Below, piece by piece: positions 21,222 through 32,579 of a stretch of 32,579 nucleotides of DNA (position 1 is the stretch's first letter; each line of letters starts with the position of its first letter). The stretch covers positions 1 through 32,579 of the forward strand of contig BEHK01000015.1 in assembly GCA_002898775.1 (NCBI GenBank), written 5' to 3'. Under the pieces are notes generated by a model that was given only the letters and a program-made list of their open reading frames with translations, was not told the DNA's origin and did no database searches. The stretch comes from a bacterium HR08. GTDB taxonomy: Bacteria; Acidobacteriota; Blastocatellia; HR10. The position numbers and the translations under genes are program-made.

Positions 21222-21357
21222 GAGGAAGTTTGAGGCGCTCCCTCACCGAGCAGGAGGGATGGCGCGACAGCGGTCATCAATTTCCCCGACGAAGTCTCCC
21301 CATGGAAATTCCCGCGCCTTTTCATCGGGTTGACCTCTTGTGTACATTGTGAAGCCG

Positions 21358-23157
21358 ATGTTCGGACGAAGCGCTTCGCATCACAAGGGAGGCCGATTCG
21401 AGGACTTGCGGGCGTTTCTCGCCTTCCTGGAGCAGCGCGGACAACTCGTCCGCGTTCCCGTCGAAGTGGACCCGGTCCTCGAGGTGACCGAGATCGCGCA
21501 GCGCGTGGTTCGCGAGGGTGGGCCCGCGCTGCTGTTCGAGCGACCCAAAGGCGCCGCCTTTCCCCTCGTCATCAATCTGTTCGGGACAGCCGAGCGCATC
21601 CGATGGGCCTTGGGGCGAGAACCGGCCGAGATCGGTGAGGAGTTCCTTCGCGCGCTCGACCACCTGAATCCCCCAACGCTCGGCGGTCTCTGGCGCTCGC
21701 GCGCGCTCTTTCGCCGAGCGCTCAGCATGCGCCCGCGCCGCGTGCGACGCGCGCCCGTGCAAGAGGTCCTCGAGGAGCCGGATCTCTGGAAGCTCCCAAT
21801 CTTGAAATGCTGGCCGGAGGATGGCGGGCGCTTCATCACGTTCGGACTCGTGCTCACGGAACACCCGAAGACGCATCGGCGAAATCTGGGCCTCTACCGC
21901 CTGCACGTCTTCGAACGCGATCGAACGGGAATGCACTGGCAAAGCCTCAAGGGGGGGCGTGCGCACTACGATGAGGCCGAGCGTGAGGGCCGTCCGCTGC
22001 TGACGGCCGTGATCCTGGGCGGCGATCCCGCGCTGATGCTTTCCGCCATCTTGCCCTTGCCGGAGGATTTCGACGAGATCGCTTTCGCCGGATTCTTGCG
22101 TGGCCGCCCCGTCCCCATGGTTCGAGCCCGCACGATCCCGCTCCTTGTTCCGGCTCATGCGGAGTTCATCCTCGAAGGCATCGTCCCCCCCTACGAACGC
22201 CAGATGGAGGGACCCTTCGGCGATCACTTCGGTCACTATTCGGAAGCCGCCCCCTTCCCCATCTTTCAGATTCACCGGATCACGCGCCGTCGTCGGCCGA
22301 TCTACCCGGCCACGGTCGTGGGCAAGCCGCCTCAGGAGGACAAGTATCTCGGCATCGCCGCCAACGAGATGATCGGCCCGCTCGTGCGACTCCTCCATCC
22401 GAACGTCGTGGACCTCTGGGCGTTTCCGGGGGCCGGATTTCACAACCTGCTCGGCGTCTCCCTTCGAGAGCGTCATCCGAAGGAGGCGCTCAAGACGGCC
22501 TTCGCGCTGCTGGGACTCGGGCAACTGGCCCTCACAAAAGTGATGATCCTGGTGCGGGAGGAGGTGAACTGCCGGAGCTTCTCGGCCTTGCTGCGCGAGC
22601 TGTGGTTTCGCTTCGATCCGCAGCAGCACCTGCTGCTTCTGCCGACGGCTCCGCTGGACACGCTCGACTTCACCTCCTTCGTCCCCCACGTCGGCGGCAA
22701 ACTCATCCTCGACGCCACGGGCGAACGCCTTCGGGAGAGCCCGCCGCCCACCGAGGTCACCGATCCGCGAACGCTCGATCGGCGCATCCTCGCGCACCGC
22801 TTATTGGACGGGGGGGTGCTCGTCCTCACCATCGAGCGCGAAGCGCGCGCCGTGCTGGAGGACCTCATGCGCGCGCCGGCCTTGGGCCCCGTGAGGATCC
22901 TGATCGCCGTCAGTCCCGACGTGCGGCTCGAGGATGAGGAGCATCTCCTCTGGGGCATCTTCACGCGCTTCGATCCCGCCCGCGATTTGCTGTGCGAAGA
23001 GATGCGCTTGGTCGGAGCGCGCCCCCTTTATCGCGGGCGCATGGCCATTGACGCGACGTGGAAGGAAGGATATCCGCGCCCCCTCGAGATGCGTGAGGAC
23101 ATCGTGCGCTTGGTGGACCGACGCTGGCCCGAATACTTTCCCACGCAGGGGAGATGA
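21358..23157 (+). CDS. UbiD-family (prenylated-FMN) decarboxylase
   Basis: The product is 599 residues from the ATG at 21358; an in-frame GTG at 21340 is a weaker alternative, and neither has a strong Shine-Dalgarno. Family signature residues are present: FEDLRAFLAFLEQRGQLVRV at the N-terminus, NLGLYR (176-181) with the conserved Arg181, and EGPFGDH (284-290) with Glu284 and Asp289, matching the E-R-D type active site of E. coli UbiD. C-terminal blocks are visible (WGIFTRFDPARDL). UbiD enzymes use prenylated FMN to (de)carboxylate aromatic or unsaturated acids, for example in ubiquinone/menaquinone synthesis. No ubiX-like flavin prenyltransferase lies in this window, so the cofactor must come from elsewhere. 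The substrate is unknown. The gene is divergent from the S8 peptidase gene. Confidence 0.5.
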   Translation: MFGRSASHHKGGRFEDLRAFLAFLEQRGQLVRVPVEVDPVLEVTEIAQRVVREGGPALLFERPKGAAFPLVINLFGTAERIRWALGREPAEIGEEFLRALDHLNPPTLGGLWRSRALFRRALSMRPRRVRRAPVQEVLEEPDLWKLPILKCWPEDGGRFITFGLVLTEHPKTHRRNLGLYRLHVFERDRTGMHWQSLKGGRAHYDEAEREGRPLLTAVILGGDPALMLSAILPLPEDFDEIAFAGFLRGRPVPMVRARTIPLLVPAHAEFILEGIVPPYERQMEGPFGDHFGHYSEAAPFPIFQIHRITRRRRPIYPATVVGKPPQEDKYLGIAANEMIGPLVRLLHPNVVDLWAFPGAGFHNLLGVSLRERHPKEALKTAFALLGLGQLALTKVMILVREEVNCRSFSALLRELWFRFDPQQHLLLLPTAPLDTLDFTSFVPHVGGKLILDATGERLRESPPPTEVTDPRTLDRRILAHRLLDGGVLVLTIEREARAVLEDLMRAPALGPVRILIAVSPDVRLEDEEHLLWGIFTRFDPARDLLCEEMRLVGARPLYRGRMAIDATWKEGYPRPLEMREDIVRLVDRRWPEYFPTQGR

Positions 23158-25211: not shown

Positions 25212-26439
25212 CGGCTCCGGTCCTCGTGGAGATCTCGCTGGGGTCCCCTGTCCGGAACCCCAGCCATGAGCTCATTCGTAGCGCAACGCCTCAATGGGAT
25301 CGAGTGAAGCGGCCTTATGGGCCGGGTAATATCCGAAGAAGATGCCCACGGCCGCCGCGAAGCCAAATGAGATGACCATCGAGAGCGGAGAGACGAGCGT
25401 CGGCCAGCCGAGCACGCGCGAGATGCCCACCGAGAGTCCGACGCCCAGAAGAAGCCCGATTATCCCCCCCATCAAGCAGAGGACCAGCGACTCGGTCAGA
25501 AACTGCACGCGAATATGGCCGGGGCGCGCTCCGACGGCCATACGGATGCCGATCTCGCGCGTGCGCTCGGTCACCGACACGAGCATGATGTTCATGATGC
25601 CGATGCCCCCGACAATGAGCGAGACGGCGGCGATGCTGCCCAACAGCAAGGTCATCACGCGGTTGGTCTGTTCGGCCGCTTCGGCGATCTCCGTCATATT
25701 CCGAACCATGAAATCGTCCTGCCCGGGAGGCGTCTTATGGCGTTGCCGCAGCAGTTCGGTCACCTGCTGCTCGCCCGCCGTCGCCGCCGTTGGCGAGACG
25801 AACGAGATCATGATGGCATTGACCGAGAGAATCTGCTGCCCGAGCAGCTTCTTCTGCACCGTCGTGTAGGGCATGACGATGACGTCATCCTGATCCTGCC
25901 CCATCACGGATTGCCCCTTCGAGGCGAGGACGCCGATCACGCGGAAAGGGAGATTCCGAATGCGAATGGTCTGCCCGACCGGACTGAGGCCTTGAAAGAG
26001 ATTGTCCACCACGGTCTTGCCGAGCACGACGACGCGCGCGGCGGCGCGCACATCGCCCTCGTTGAAGAACTCGCCCTCCTGAACGGGCCAATTCCGAATC
26101 GCGGGGAACTTCTCATTGGTCCCCTGGATCGAGGTGAACCAGTTCTGATTCCCGAAGACGACCTGCGCCGAGGCCCGCACGATCGGAGAGGCCGCCCGAA
26201 CGAGCGGGATCTCGCGCTCGATCGCCTCAGCATCCTCGGCCGTGAGCGTGGCGGCGGCTCCGGCGCCCAAGCGCACACCGCCCCACATGCGGCTCCCGGC
26301 CCAGACGAACATGACGTTGGTCCCCATGCTCTGAATCTGGTCCTTGACCATCGCCTGAGCCCCCTGACCGATGGAGACCATGGCGATGACGGCCCCGACG
26401 CCAATGATGATACCGAGCATCGTGAGCGTCGAGCGCAGC

Positions 26440-27315
<876 letters not shown>

Positions 27316-27385
27316 GTGAACGCCCCTCCTCACGAAGGTGACCTCGCGAGAGCTCCGGCGAAGCCCCACGCGAATGCCCCCATTA

Positions 27386-29209
27386 TCACCGGCGCATGCC
27401 ACCACCGGCCGGTCGCGGCGGACCGAAGCCGACGGGCCGACCGAAGGGCGAGGGCGGGCCACTCGACTGTTGCGCGGGCGCCTGTGACGTGTCGCCGATG
27501 ATGACCTGGTCTCCCTCCTTCACCTCCCCCGTGATGACTTCCGTGTATACCCCATCAGTGATCCCCAGCAGGACCCGCCGCGGCTCGGGCCTCCTCTGCG
27601 CCGAGAGCACCCAGACAATGGCCGGACGAACGCGACTGGTCTCACGCGGCGCCGGGAAGCGCAGTTTCTCCGCCGGATCCCACAATTGCCCCGGCGCCAG
27701 CGTCACCGAAGAAGCTGGGCCCCGCGAGCCCCTCGGTCGAGCCGAAGCCAACGAGGGCCCTTCACCTTCGCCACGAAGACGCTGGAAACTCTCACGAATC
27801 CTCTGCCGTTCGGCTTCGGGCAACGCGCGCATCTTCTCCAAGAGCGCGCGCCGCTCCTCCGGCGCTAAATTCGGATCGCGCAGTTGCCGGACCAAAGCCG
27901 CCGCTTCCGGCGAAAGTCCGGGGATCCCCGCCGAAGCCTGCCCCAGCTCCCGCCCGACCTGAGGACGCGCTCCCGACGCCCGCTCAGAACGCCCCGGAGG
28001 CGCCGACGAAGACTCCGCTCGCTTCTCCTCAGACGGTTGAGGCGGTCGCAGCGGCGGTCCCTGCCGCAAGAGCTCCATCACCTTCTCTCGCGTGACGCCC
28101 GGCGGCACATAGCGAAGCGCCGCATTCGGCACGCGCAAGACGTTCTCCCGCTGATCCACCGTGATGGTGATATTGGCCGTCATCCCCGGTTTGAGCTTCA
28201 GGTCGGGATTGTCCACGGCGATGATCACGCTGTACGTCACAACGTTCTGCACCGTCTGCGGGTTCAGCCGAATCTCCTGAATTCGCCCGATGAACGTATC
28301 GTTGGGATACGCGTCCACGGTGAAGCGCACCTCCACGGCCTCGGAGATCTTCCCGATGTCGGCCTCATCCACGTTCGCATGGACCTGCATCTTCGTCAGA
28401 TCGTTGGCGATGACAAAGAGCGTAGGCGCCTGCAAGCTCGCCGCGACTGTCTGCCCGACATCCACGTTGCGCGAGATGACGACCCCATCCACCGGCGAAT
28501 AGATGTTCGTGTACTCCAGATTGACCTGAGCGCGATTGACCTCCGCGCGCGCCTGCTCGACCTGAGCCTTCGCCTGCTCCAGTTGCGCCTCGGTGGCGCG
28601 AATCTGCGCCCGCACCTGTTGCACCGCCGCGAGCGCCTGATTGTATCGGGCCCGCGCCGAATCGGCATTCGCCTTGGCGTTGTCGTATTCGTTCTGCGAG
28701 AGCACGCCGCCTCGCATCAGCTCTGTATAGCGGCGCAGGATGAGATTGGCATTCTCCATGGCGACGCGCGCGGCCTCCAGATTCGCCTCGGCCGCCGCCA
28801 GATTCGCCCGTTGCGTGTTCAACTCGGCTTCTACTGTGCGCACCCGGGCTTCGGCCGCCGCCAGATTCGCCCGCGCGTTCTCCAACTGCGCCTCGAAATT
28901 GCGCGGATCAATCTTCGCCAGCAACTGCCCGCGTTTGACGACGGAGTTGAAATCCGCGTAGAGGGCTTGAATCTGCCCGGAGACCTGACTCCCCACCTGA
29001 ACCGTCACGACCGCTTGAACCGTCCCCGTCGCGTTCACGACGTTGCGCACAGGCCCGCGATCGACGGGCGCGGTGAAGAACTCACTCGCAGCCGCCCGCT
29101 GTCGGAAGACCGTCAGTGAGAGAACCCCTCCGACGACGACCACAAGGGCCAGCACGAGGATCACCATCCGCTTTTTCGTCACCCACGCTTTCACGCTTCC
29201 CAATACCAT
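27386..29209 (-). CDS. MacA-like periplasmic adaptor (HlyD family) with a large inserted segment
   Basis: The product is 607 residues from the ATG at 29209, five bases after the stop of the Spy/CpxP-like gene. The N-terminal membrane anchor is at about 15-34. A split lipoyl domain ([32 protein letters not shown]) is interrupted by a long alpha-helical hairpin at about 103-235 with repeated RANLAAAEA elements, closed by [20 protein letters not shown]. Beta-barrel and membrane-proximal domains follow. Ordinary MacA proteins are about 370-400 residues; this one has roughly 150 extra residues (about 375-525) between [10 protein letters not shown] and [18 protein letters not shown]. The insert is Pro/Ser-rich with a helical core at 432-483. 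The C-terminus is Gly/Pro-rich ([13 protein letters not shown]). It links the inner-membrane transporter to an outer-membrane factor; no TolC-like gene is in the window. Confidence 0.5.
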
Positions 29210-29213
29210 AGGC

Positions 29214-29633
29214 TCATTGCTCCTTTGGCCCATCTCGACGATGACGCTCCCGCTCCTCATCCATGCGTCGCATCAGCTCATCAAACTTGGCCTGCTGCTC
29301 CGGCGTCAGCACGGCCCGCAATCGCTCGCGCGAGCGACGACGAATGTCCTCAAATCGCGGCCGCATCTCATTACGAAGTTGTAGAAATTCCTGCCGCGTC
29401 TCATCGAGAATGCGTCGCACCTGCTCCGTCTGCTCCGGAGTGAGTCCCAACTCCTTGATGAGATACTGCAGATGCCGTTCGCGCGCGCTCTCCCCGCGCG
29501 GCGGCCCCGTGGGGCTGCGTCCTCGGACACCCTGCTGATAAAATTCCATCGCCAGGGCGCCCAGAGCCACTCCGAGCGCGAAGACGCCCAAGACCGTTAA
29601 GCGAGCCCGCCATGAGCCGTTTCGAAAAGTCAT
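29214..29633 (-). CDS. Spy/CpxP-like periplasmic sensor protein
   Basis: The product is 139 residues with an N-terminal membrane segment (about 11-29, LTVLGVFALGVALGALAMEF), probably an anchor. The periplasmic part is helical and has two LTPEQ motifs (LTPEQTEQVRRILDETRQEF and VLTPEQQAKFDELMRRMDEE), the signature of the CpxP/Spy/ZraP heavy-metal-sensor family. These act as periplasmic chaperones or signal relays that sense envelope stress or metals. The ATG at 29633 overlaps the anti-sigma stop by four bases (ATGA), and the stop lies 4 bp before the adaptor start. In this context it probably modulates the sigma/anti-sigma pair or guards the pump; that is inference. Confidence 0.5.
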   Translation of the reverse strand: MTFRNGSWRARLTVLGVFALGVALGALAMEFYQQGVRGRSPTGPPRGESARERHLQYLIKELGLTPEQTEQVRRILDETRQEFLQLRNEMRPRFEDIRRRSRERLRAVLTPEQQAKFDELMRRMDEERERHRRDGPKEQ

Positions 29634-30124
29634 CTCGACTCCCGCGACTCGGCCACCAGAGCGCCCAGAACGCTATCCTGATTCAGCTCCTCCTCTCCGG
29701 CGAAGACCAAGCGCTCGGCTTCGGAGAAGTTCCGCTCCATCAGCGCTGAGACGAAATCCCGGCGCCCGCTCGGAATCTGTTGATGAACGTAAATGTTCAC
29801 GCCGACAAGGAGGATGAGGACGATCGTCGCCGTCAGGGCGATGCTCGCCGAGAACGCTCGCACGGCTTCCCAGAAGGGGAAGACCGGTCGAGCGCGCTGC
29901 CGCCGCACTTGCGCGCTCACGCGCGCATAGAGGGAGGGATCCGGATCAACCACGTCCGTTCGGGTCGCCTGCAGCAACATGCGCCTGAGCGCCCACAGGC
30001 GCGCTTCCTCCTCGCAGCTTGGACACTGCCGGAGATGCGCCCGGACCGCTTCTCGCTCAGCGCGATCCTCGGCCCCGATCCGAGCCCATGCCATCAGATG
30101 TCGTCGAACATCTCGGCAGGTCAT
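29630..30124 (-). CDS. zf-HC2-type anti-sigma factor
   Basis: The product is 164 residues. The zinc-binding anti-sigma motif H-x3-C-x2-C is present as His30, Cys34 and Cys37 (HLRQCPSC); Cys3 probably supplies the fourth ligand. One membrane segment lies at about 92-114 (SIALTATIVLILLVGVNIYV), leaving a C-terminal extracytoplasmic tail of about 50 residues with a Glu-rich segment (FSEAERLVFAGEEELNQ). The domain order matches membrane-bound ZAS anti-sigma factors that hold an ECF sigma at the inner membrane until a signal releases it. The ATG at 30124 overlaps the sigma stop by four bases, and its stop overlaps the Spy/CpxP-like start likewise, giving strong translational coupling. Confidence 0.5.
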   Translation of the reverse strand: MTCRDVRRHLMAWARIGAEDRAEREAVRAHLRQCPSCEEEARLWALRRMLLQATRTDVVDPDPSLYARVSAQVRRQRARPVFPFWEAVRAFSASIALTATIVLILLVGVNIYVHQQIPSGRRDFVSALMERNFSEAERLVFAGEEELNQDSVLGALVAESRESR

Positions 30125-30798
30125 CTCCCCTCAGCCCTTCGGGACGGCGGCCCCTCAGCTCGCGCCTTCGCCGCCGATGTGGGCCGCGCCGCCCGCAACA
30201 GGCGGCGCAACCGTTTATCCAATGCGCGACGCGCTCGAAACAGCCGAATCTTCACCTTCGACCGGGACCAGCCCATCAGGTCCCCAATCTCGGCCGTCGA
30301 GAGCCCATCGCGCTCATACAACAACATGACCAGACGATCCTCGGGCGAGAGCGTGGCCAGCAGCTTCTCGGCCACGGCCGCCGCGTCTTCGCTCTGCTGC
30401 TGCTGCTCGAACAATTCGAACGCCGGTTTCGCCAACGCCTCTTCCAACCACACCCGCTCGTCCTCGGCCAGATCCGCCAGGCTGAACTCCCGCCGCCGTT
30501 TCATCCGCCGGAGTTCATCATAGCACGCATTCACGGCAATTTTCATCAGCCACCGCTCGAAGGAGGCTCCCCGCCGATATGTGTGCAGCGCTTGATAAGC
30601 CTTCAGGAAGGTCTCCTGCGTGATGTCCTCCCGCATCTCCGGCTGGCGGAAGAACCGCCCGGCCACATTGTAGACAGTCCGACCGTAGCGCTTGACCAGC
30701 ACTTCGAAAGCCTCCGCATCGCCCGCCAGACTCCGCTCGACCAGCTCCTCGTCGTCGGGCACAAGCTCGCTCGCCGAATTGCGCGTCTCCGCCACCAC
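30121..30798 (-). CDS. ECF RNA polymerase sigma factor
   Basis: The product is 225 residues if initiated at the GTG at 30798 (a second GTG follows at once, and another at codon 13, 30762, is possible). Region 2 is at about 28-98 (EAFEVLVKRYGRTVYNVAGRFF, then DITQETFLKAYQAL and FERWLMKIAVNACYDELR). Region 4 is at about 145-197 (LSPEDRLVMLLYERDGLSTAEIGDLMGWSRSKVKIRLFRARRAL), with no region 3, as in ECF (group IV) sigma factors. It directs RNA polymerase to its own regulon, probably including this operon, and is held by the zf-HC2 protein encoded next. No promoter of clear ECF type was established upstream: a GGAACC lies at 30833-30828, but no matching -10. Confidence 0.5.
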   Translation of the reverse strand: MVAETRNSASELVPDDEELVERSLAGDAEAFEVLVKRYGRTVYNVAGRFFRQPEMREDITQETFLKAYQALHTYRRGASFERWLMKIAVNACYDELRRMKRRREFSLADLAEDERVWLEEALAKPAFELFEQQQQSEDAAAVAEKLLATLSPEDRLVMLLYERDGLSTAEIGDLMGWSRSKVKIRLFRARRALDKRLRRLLRAARPTSAAKARAEGPPSRRAEGR

Positions 30799-30875
30799 GC
30801 TCTATACAACTCGGCTTGTGCCATCTTGGTTCCCAAACCGTAGTACGTTGGGCCAAGAGGTCCCGGTTACGCCTC

Positions 30876-30902: not shown

Positions 30903-32579
30903 TCACGCCTGATATTCCCCAGCGATCACCGTGATGAGCCGCTCCGGATGAAAGTAGGTGCGAATCGCCGCGTTCACTTCGTCTTGCGTGAGCGCGCGGA
31001 CGTCGTCCGGGAGACGATCCAGATAAGACGGTCCGAACCCGAAGACCTCGGCCAGAAGCAACTGCGCGGCAATCCCGGCGTTGGTCCCCAGCCCGACCAG
31101 GAATGATCCCACGAAGGCCGACTTCTCATCCTCCAGTTCCTGCTGTGTGATCCCCTCGGCCACATAGCGGGTGAGCACGTCCAGTGTCGACGCCACAGCA
31201 CGCTCCACGTTCTCCGGATTGACCGTCACACTCACCGCCCACGGTCCGTCCAGGAAGCTCGGCTCAAGGAAGCGCGAGACAATACCATAGGTGAGCCCCT
31301 CCTGATCCCGCACCCGCACGCCCAAGCGGGAGGAAAGGGTGGAATATCCAAGCGCCGCATTGGCGATGATCGCCGCAAGATAGTCCGGATCCGTGCGCCG
31401 CAATCGCCCGGCATGCCCGAGGACGATGTCCACATTCGCCTTATCCGGCATGTAGATGACCTCGCGACGCGAGGCCTCGGGCAAAGGCGCGCGCGGCATT
31501 CGCGCCCACAGCGCGCGCGGGTCCTCGCTCTCGGTCGCTTCGATCGGCCAATCGCCGAATTCCCGCTCGATCTCCCGCCCGATCTCCTCGGCCCTGACGT
31601 CCCCGACGACCACCAGCACCAGATGGCGCGGATCATAGTGCGCGCGGTAGAAACGGCGCACCTCCTCGACCGTCATCGCCTCCAAGCTCGCCACACGCTC
31701 AGAAGCCGGGCGCTCATAAAACGGGCTCGACCGCTCATAGATGAGCTGCGAGAAGCGCTCGAAGGCGCGCACGCTCGTGCTCTCCTGGCTCCGCCGAATT
31801 TGACCGATCATCTGCAGCGTGAGCTTCGAGAGCTCCTCCTCGGGAAAGGCCGGCTCTCGTAACACCTCGGCCAACGTCTCCAGCAAGCGTCCGACATCGT
31901 GACTGAGCGAGGTCGCGCTCACCATGACCAGGAACCGATTCGCGCCGATATGCATCTCAGCCCCAACATCCTCAAGCCATGCGGCGATCTCCAGCTTGCT
32001 TCGCCGCTCCGTCCCGCGCATCAGCATGGAGGCCGTCGCGGCGGCCACCTCTGGCCTCTCCGCTGGCTCGAAGGCCCGACCCGCGAAGAGCGCCGCACGA
32101 ATCTCCACCGTCGGATTCGCATGATTCTCCAGAACCAAGGCGCGAACCCCATTGGGGAGAGAGAAGCAGACCGTGCGCTCGGCAAAGGGCCGCCCATACT
32201 GAGGGGGCGCCGGATCCCCACCCGTTGTCTCCGGCGGCACCGAGAAGAACGCCGGACGATGAAGCGAGGCGACGTCGCCCTTGGACACCCCTGCCACGCT
32301 CCTTCCCGCATCCTTTGGGACGAACCACCCGACCGTGAGATTGTCCTCATGAAGATAGGCCCGAGCGACACGTTGCACGTCCTCAGTCGAGACCCGCCGC
32401 ACGTTCGGGACATACTCCACGAACCAACGCCAATCGGCGCTCGCTTCGGCCTCTCCCAGGGCGAAGGCGAAAGGCAAGGCTCCATCGCGCGCGTAAAAGG
32501 TATCGGCCTCGATCTTATTCTTGGCGCGCTCCAGCTCCGCCTCACTTACCCCCTCATCCTGCAGCCGCGCGATCTCCTC
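30903..32579 (-). CDS. M16-family (insulinase-like) peptidase, C-terminal 558 residues (5' end outside window)
   Basis: The frame is open to the right edge, so the start and the first M16 domain with its HxxEH zinc site lie outside. The visible part begins in the end of the first half (VSEAELERAKNKIEADTFYARDG) and then contains the second M16 repeat: FSLPNGVRALVLENH... LMRGTERRSKLEIAAWLEDVGAE... FYRAHYDPRHLVLVVVGDV... DQEGLTYGI.., and a substrate-contacting block typical of M16B enzymes. Second repeats normally lack the zinc motif, as here. The stop is at 30903-30905. Substrates are peptides or short proteins, and the protein probably acts outside the cytoplasm. It lies upstream of the ECF sigma gene on the same strand, 104 bp away, with a hairpin between, so it is probably a separate transcript. 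Confidence 0.5.
   Translation of the reverse strand, partial: EEIARLQDEGVSEAELERAKNKIEADTFYARDGALPFAFALGEAEASADWRWFVEYVPNVRRVSTEDVQRVARAYLHEDNLTVGWFVPKDAGRSVAGVSKGDVASLHRPAFFSVPPETTGGDPAPPQYGRPFAERTVCFSLPNGVRALVLENHANPTVEIRAALFAGRAFEPAERPEVAAATASMLMRGTERRSKLEIAAWLEDVGAEMHIGANRFLVMVSATSLSHDVGRLLETLAEVLREPAFPEEELSKLTLQMIGQIRRSQESTSVRAFERFSQLIYERSSPFYERPASERVASLEAMTVEEVRRFYRAHYDPRHLVLVVVGDVRAEEIGREIEREFGDWPIEATESEDPRALWARMPRAPLPEASRREVIYMPDKANVDIVLGHAGRLRRTDPDYLAAIIANAALGYSTLSSRLGVRVRDQEGLTYGIVSRFLEPSFLDGPWAVSVTVNPENVERAVASTLDVLTRYVAEGITQQELEDEKSAFVGSFLVGLGTNAGIAAQLLLAEVFGFGPSYLDRLPDDVRALTQDEVNAAIRTYFHPERLITVIAGEYQA

Follow-up and report, generated by a model that had tools for sequence, protein, structure and literature searches.

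The DNA analysed here, a stretch of 32,579 nucleotides (the window), encodes a MacAB-type pump in an operon linked to an ECF sigma factor. We judge it somewhat better than an even prospect that in such operons a Spy-type module is a working part of the pump, supplied in trans, by a neighboring gene, or in cis, within the adaptor. This role is the most likely one, because elsewhere the module is fused into the same loop of the adaptor, and because the fused loci carry no separate Spy gene nearby.

The operon occupies the minus strand, its genes overlapping or standing close together in the order ECF sigma factor, anti-sigma factor, Spy/CpxP-like protein, MacA-like adaptor, MacB-type ATPase and MacB-type permease. 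The sigma factor (30121–30798; 225 aa, GTG start; E-values of 1.4e-19 for PF04542, 1.3e-13 for PF08281 and 5.6e-29 for TIGR02937) keeps its position in eight relatives; its gene shares 4 nt with that of a zinc-finger anti-sigma factor (29630–30124; 164 aa; PF13490 zf-HC2, 2.3e-6), which has one apparent transmembrane (TM) helix. The Spy/CpxP-like protein (29214–29633; 139 aa) has a TM anchor at its N-terminus and, as the initial annotation had stated, two true LTPEQ motifs (LTPEQTEQ and LTPEQQAK); with PF07813 it scores 33.5 bits (E 7.3e-8), above the gathering cutoff of 24.3 bits, and so belongs to the LTXXQ profile family. Downstream of the adaptor gene (27386–29209; 607 aa) lie separate genes for the ATPase (26440–27318, start codon approximate; PF00005, 3.1e-35; NF007826, 5.7e-80, a match that spans the N-terminal part of MacB) and the permease (25272–26492; PF12704, 4.8e-57; PF02687, 2.2e-21). 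No TolC-like gene was recognized in the window's operon. Relatives were sought in the genus, family, order and class (Blastocatellia) of the acidobacterial source genome, and the order sigma, anti-sigma, Spy, MacA, MacB, MacB is kept in the family and order relatives. The sigma gene is preceded by a non-coding block (30799–30860, minus strand) that contains GGGAACCAAGATGGCACAAGC..GTTGTATAGAG and is nearly invariant in five congeners; from its sequence it is possibly an ECF-type promoter (GGAAC) through which the sigma factor regulates its own expression.

Profile comparisons indicate that the adaptor is MacA-like, not a MacA equivalog. It scores above the cutoff for TIGR01730 (1.9e-51), which places it among HlyD/RND_mfp domain proteins, and matches PF16576 (3.3e-23), but reaches 175.8 bits against NF008606, the MacA equivalog model, where the cutoff is 342. 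Its fold is that of MacA (best Foldseek matches 9qgy, 3fpp and 5nik), and the genes for a MacB ATPase and permease, the partners of MacA, adjoin it. With MacAB-TolC the system thus shares the adaptor body, membrane-proximal (MP) domain, alpha-hairpin and adjoining MacB-type ATPase and permease; it differs in that ATPase and permease are separate genes in the window, in the presence of the ECF sigma, anti-sigma and Spy genes within the operon, and in an insert of 165 aa in a loop of the MP domain, which forms a three-helix head in the window and a Spy module in relatives. The insert (residues 366–530, R366 to A530; 27620–28114, minus strand) is bounded by two strands of the MP domain, one that ends in '..VPNAAL' and another that reads 'IVWVL..'. 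It is missing from E. coli MacA, as had been proposed, and at about 165 residues is slightly longer than the 150 or so first estimated; a phmmer alignment of the adaptor with 9qgy (E. coli MacA) places the gap between query residues 385 and 543. Inserts at the same site range from 12 to 237 aa in the aligned relatives: this one loop of the MP domain is an insertion hot spot. In two Blastocatellia loci (L018 and L019, family f4) it holds 213–237 low-complexity residues rich in G/N/S/R/Q, an unusual length of disorder for a periplasmic pump part, and in three Vicinamibacteria-like Acidobacteriota (L090, L107 and L127) it holds another short helical element, SPEERxxFxxRMRERG, which is probably a further mini-domain, independently acquired.

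Among 80 related adaptors taken from GTDB contigs, 23 carry two LTxxQ-type motifs within a module at exactly the window's insertion site. These 23 come from Pseudomonadota (alpha, beta, lambda and unassigned), Rokubacteria/Methylomirabilota, Thermodesulfobacteriota and other records titled "Deltaproteobacteria". PF07813 matches every one of the 23 modules at E≤0.01; several of them exceed the gathering score and some fall short of it. AlphaFold2 (AF2) predicts four helices for the inserted module (pLDDT 85), and a Foldseek search with the isolated module returns STV (prob 1.00), CnrX, Spy and CpxP as top matches; because all of these have E>0.001, the assignment of the inserted modules to the Spy fold relies mainly on sequence. 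In the loci that were fetched and inspected, Spy lies between the N- and C-terminal parts of the adaptor, except for standalone matches and a few others. Judging by profile alignment, the window's neighboring Spy gene is homologous to the inserted modules (hhalign 99.0%, E 3.7e-18, 78 columns). Both thus share with the Spy/CpxP/ZraP/CnrX proteins (PF07813, PF13801) two LTxxQ-type motifs and PF07813 matches, and the four helices predicted for the inserted modules would add to the likeness; they differ from those proteins in being coupled with an efflux adaptor, either in cis or through the operon. We found no earlier description of Spy modules in MacA-like adaptors in the open-licence literature, and the text on adaptor architecture in the review PMC4446572 does not describe Spy-fused adaptors. 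Two large-ORF Spy matches, L181 and L182, were set aside as not being adaptors, and L150 is a doubtful case. L182 (genome G625, contig C22) comprises two adjacent 870-aa proteins in minus frames (L182:690 and L182:5128) with a Spy-type module at the C-terminus and an N-terminal region that by its appearance resembles DUF3604: another Spy fusion, in Acidobacteriota.

In a census of whole genomes, Spy matches in adaptor-sized open frames turned up in Methylomirabilota (about 47 of 95 genomes), Pseudomonadota (about 8 of 299) and the Thermodesulfobacteriota set (about 7 of 198); no fused adaptor was seen among 297 Acidobacteriota, though the Spy module occurs in 104 of those genomes. Classification of 126 adaptors yielded 48 with Spy inside (cis), 38 with a Spy gene nearby (trans), none with both and 40 with neither form nearby. 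These 40 show that a pump of this type can do without Spy. A separate Spy gene stands near none of the 23 Spy-inserted adaptors, compared to 24 of 74 others (Fisher P = 0.0007), a difference that is not significant after phylogenetic correction: on the adaptor tree the cis state must change about 6 times and the trans state 11 times, and only 1–2 independent pairs are informative, on which a sign test is not significant. Since the independent pairs are so few, the mutual exclusion of cis and trans forms is reported as a pattern and not as a proven correlation.

The genes that accompany the two forms bear on what the module does. Where Methylomirabilota loci with a separate Spy gene reach MacA, the order is sigma, anti-sigma, Spy, (TolC), MacA, MacB; the fused loci inspected from the same phylum (L211–L226) read TolC, MacA[Spy], MacB and lack genes for sigma, anti-sigma and a separate Spy. 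Absence of sigma is not universal in fused loci, since two outside Methylomirabilota (L083 and L100) have an ECF-type sigma gene upstream. In Methylomirabilota loci L199–L202, L204, L205 and L207 the separate Spy gene is followed by a TolC-like gene and then by macA, making a complete tripartite pump operon.

An alternative is that the Spy-like protein is solely the stress sensor of the sigma/anti-sigma switch, comparable to CnrX or CpxP, and that its linkage to the pump genes is purely regulatory. In CnrYXH-type systems an operon for an ECF sigma factor, an anti-sigma factor and a periplasmic sensor adjoins the RND efflux pump CnrCBA, and the window resembles these in grouping a sigma factor, an anti-sigma factor and a TM-anchored Spy-fold protein with an efflux system. 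The Spy gene directly follows the anti-sigma gene, its product is anchored as CnrX is, and loci with sigma usually have Spy too. The differences are that the window's pump is a MacAB-type ABC system and not a CnrCBA-type RND pump, that the anti-sigma factor is of the zf-HC2 type, and that CnrX-type metal ligands are not conserved: no column of the 23 inserted modules holds H, C or M at ≥50%, and in the family of the neighboring Spy protein the one invariant position of this kind is M29, which lies in the TM anchor; H56 and M123 occur in 4 of 7. With no conserved His or Cys there is no CnrX-type metal site, and the lack of conserved ligands argues against a metal sensor of the CnrX/ZraP type. 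A sensor with no other duty also fails to explain the several phyla in which the module resides in the adaptor and the sigma/anti-sigma pair is mostly absent nearby. Most fused loci lack that pair, and its loss speaks more for a function within the pump than for the sensor coupling envelope stress to pump assembly that the initial annotation suggested, and against regulation as the module's only job; on this evidence we consider the purely regulatory explanation unlikely.

For the preferred reading, a Spy-type module that is part of the pump, we propose the following mechanism. At the window's locus the pump genes are accompanied by one for a membrane-anchored partner of Spy/CpxP fold, and in the window's family the MP loop is a long arm, predicted to be disordered, that bears a conserved three-helix head; a true Spy/CpxP module occupies this loop in related adaptors of other phyla. 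The MP domain is the part of the adaptor that faces MacB, and that of E. coli MacA is reported to stimulate or control the ATPase of MacB (Modali and Zgurskaya 2011, as cited in PMC4446572). A Spy module in or beside this domain would be placed for holding substrate or for modulating MacB, and beside the MP domain it could hold peptide-like substrate that is unfolded or amphipathic, or load MacB in some other way. In the trans form the anchored Spy protein would perhaps also inform the anti-sigma factor. Most probably the module acts in the periplasm by holding substrate and presenting it to MacB; conserved substrate-binding residues were not identified in the Spy modules. More tentatively, and with some doubt, we suggest that a widespread class of MacAB-type pumps has a Spy/CpxP-type chaperone built into the MP domain of the adaptor that captures unfolded or amphipathic substrate in the periplasm for MacB, making them chaperone-fed exporters of periplasmic peptides or proteins. 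In Acidobacteriota and some Methylomirabilota the chaperone would be supplied in trans under a link to an ECF sigma factor, and in the window's family the head would dock it.

A precedent exists in SilB, where a CusF-like metallochaperone domain occurs both fused to an adaptor and alone (PMC4446572). The likeness lies in a periplasmic chaperone domain that is either fused to the adaptor or a separate protein; the difference is that the CusF-like domain is a beta-barrel that binds metal and sits C-terminally in an RND heavy-metal adaptor, whereas the relatives described here have an alpha-helical Spy module within the MP domain of an ABC-pump adaptor. The SilB/CusF case indicates that such fusions can be mechanistic. 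Both the substrates of MacAB-type pumps and the route by which substrate reaches MacB are poorly settled, and a Spy module in the domain reported to switch the MacB ATPase, or encoded by an adjacent gene, is a clue that these pumps may be chaperone-fed. It also points to a possible role for Spy/CpxP-like proteins beyond the Cpx and CnrYXH paradigms, for which the fused and separate forms provide matched test systems.

The insert of the window's own adaptor has a different content. AF2 prediction of this adaptor from an input that included 23 relatives places a three-helix mini-domain at residues 431–480 (27770–27919, minus strand; helices 434–443, 450–461 and 465–479), with pLDDT of about 88–93 that drops to about 71 at the last residues. 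On either side are linkers predicted to be disordered (pLDDT<50): residues 392–427 (27929–28036) and, including the approach to the barrel, residues 480–524 (27638–27772). Among five congeners dN/dS is 0.09 for the mini-domain, 0.38 and 0.43 for the two linkers, and 0.04 for the adaptor body. A conserved motif at residues 504–522 (27644–27700) has dN/dS of 0.06 within the genus, and a similar 'LAPGQKWNPSDKIKF' is found in locus L066. The mini-domain is conserved in the five congeners and one sister genus; a profile search of 39 genomes recovered it in only six genomes, all of one family, with two weak partial matches in addition. The stretch is thus no product of chance composition but a genuine mini-domain under selection, carried on a flexible arm: its helices are confidently predicted, and it has a dN/dS of 0.09 although the disordered linkers on both sides evolve fast. 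That the whole insert, head included, is instead a passive low-complexity spacer, free to vary and only incidentally helical, is improbable: inserts rich in G/Q/S/N/R do occupy this site in most other Blastocatellia, and the notion fits the linkers, but the rate difference between head and linkers and the confident AF2 helices contradict it for residues 431–480. We infer that the three-helix head probably serves as a knob at which a partner in the periplasm docks.

The helical stretch that first drew attention to this locus (27761–27916, minus strand) does correspond to residues 432–483 of the adaptor, the gene for which starts at 29209; its proposed kinship to Spy/CpxP fails for the window's protein and holds for the relatives with a module at the same site. 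The stretch is not a member of the Spy/CpxP family. PF07813 gives no match at E≤10, and the supposed LTPEQ-type helices are a superficial likeness: there is one L(A/T)PEE, in which the motif position lacks the Q, and no pair of LTxxQ motifs about 50 residues apart. Against a profile of genuine inserted Spy modules the stretch scores 4–7 bits, equal to shuffled inserts, and hhalign gives 30% with the inserted modules (22 columns) and 3% with the neighboring Spy family, over about 20 columns. The structure prediction likewise yields three short helices (10, 12 and 15 residues) and not the four-helix Spy pattern (15, 23, 21 and 16 in the inserted modules). Spy homology of the stretch is ruled out by the combination of Pfam, HMM scores against shuffles, hhalign and helix pattern. 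It is also very improbable that the stretch is what remains, in degenerate form, of a Spy module that an ancestral adaptor carried, for while it shares the insertion site, is helical and has a weak local likeness of 22 columns to the Spy-module profile, the Spy-inserted adaptors fall in a different half of the adaptor tree, no acidobacterial relative near the window has a Spy insert, the Spy-profile scores equal those of shuffles, and the stretch is under strong purifying selection with no decay.

Two other candidate kinships of the stretch were rejected. Likeness to Protein A or affibodies (E 6e-13) arises from summing tandem copies, single copies having i-Evalues of about 2 to 100, and DUF3106 (PF11304) gives 17.0 bits against a gathering score of 24.3 (E 0.0087). 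Elsewhere in the window, judging by appearance, a long open frame upstream of the operon (30903–32579, minus strand) resembles an M16-type peptidase, and a 605-aa open frame (21340–23157, plus strand) resembles a UbiD-type decarboxylase.
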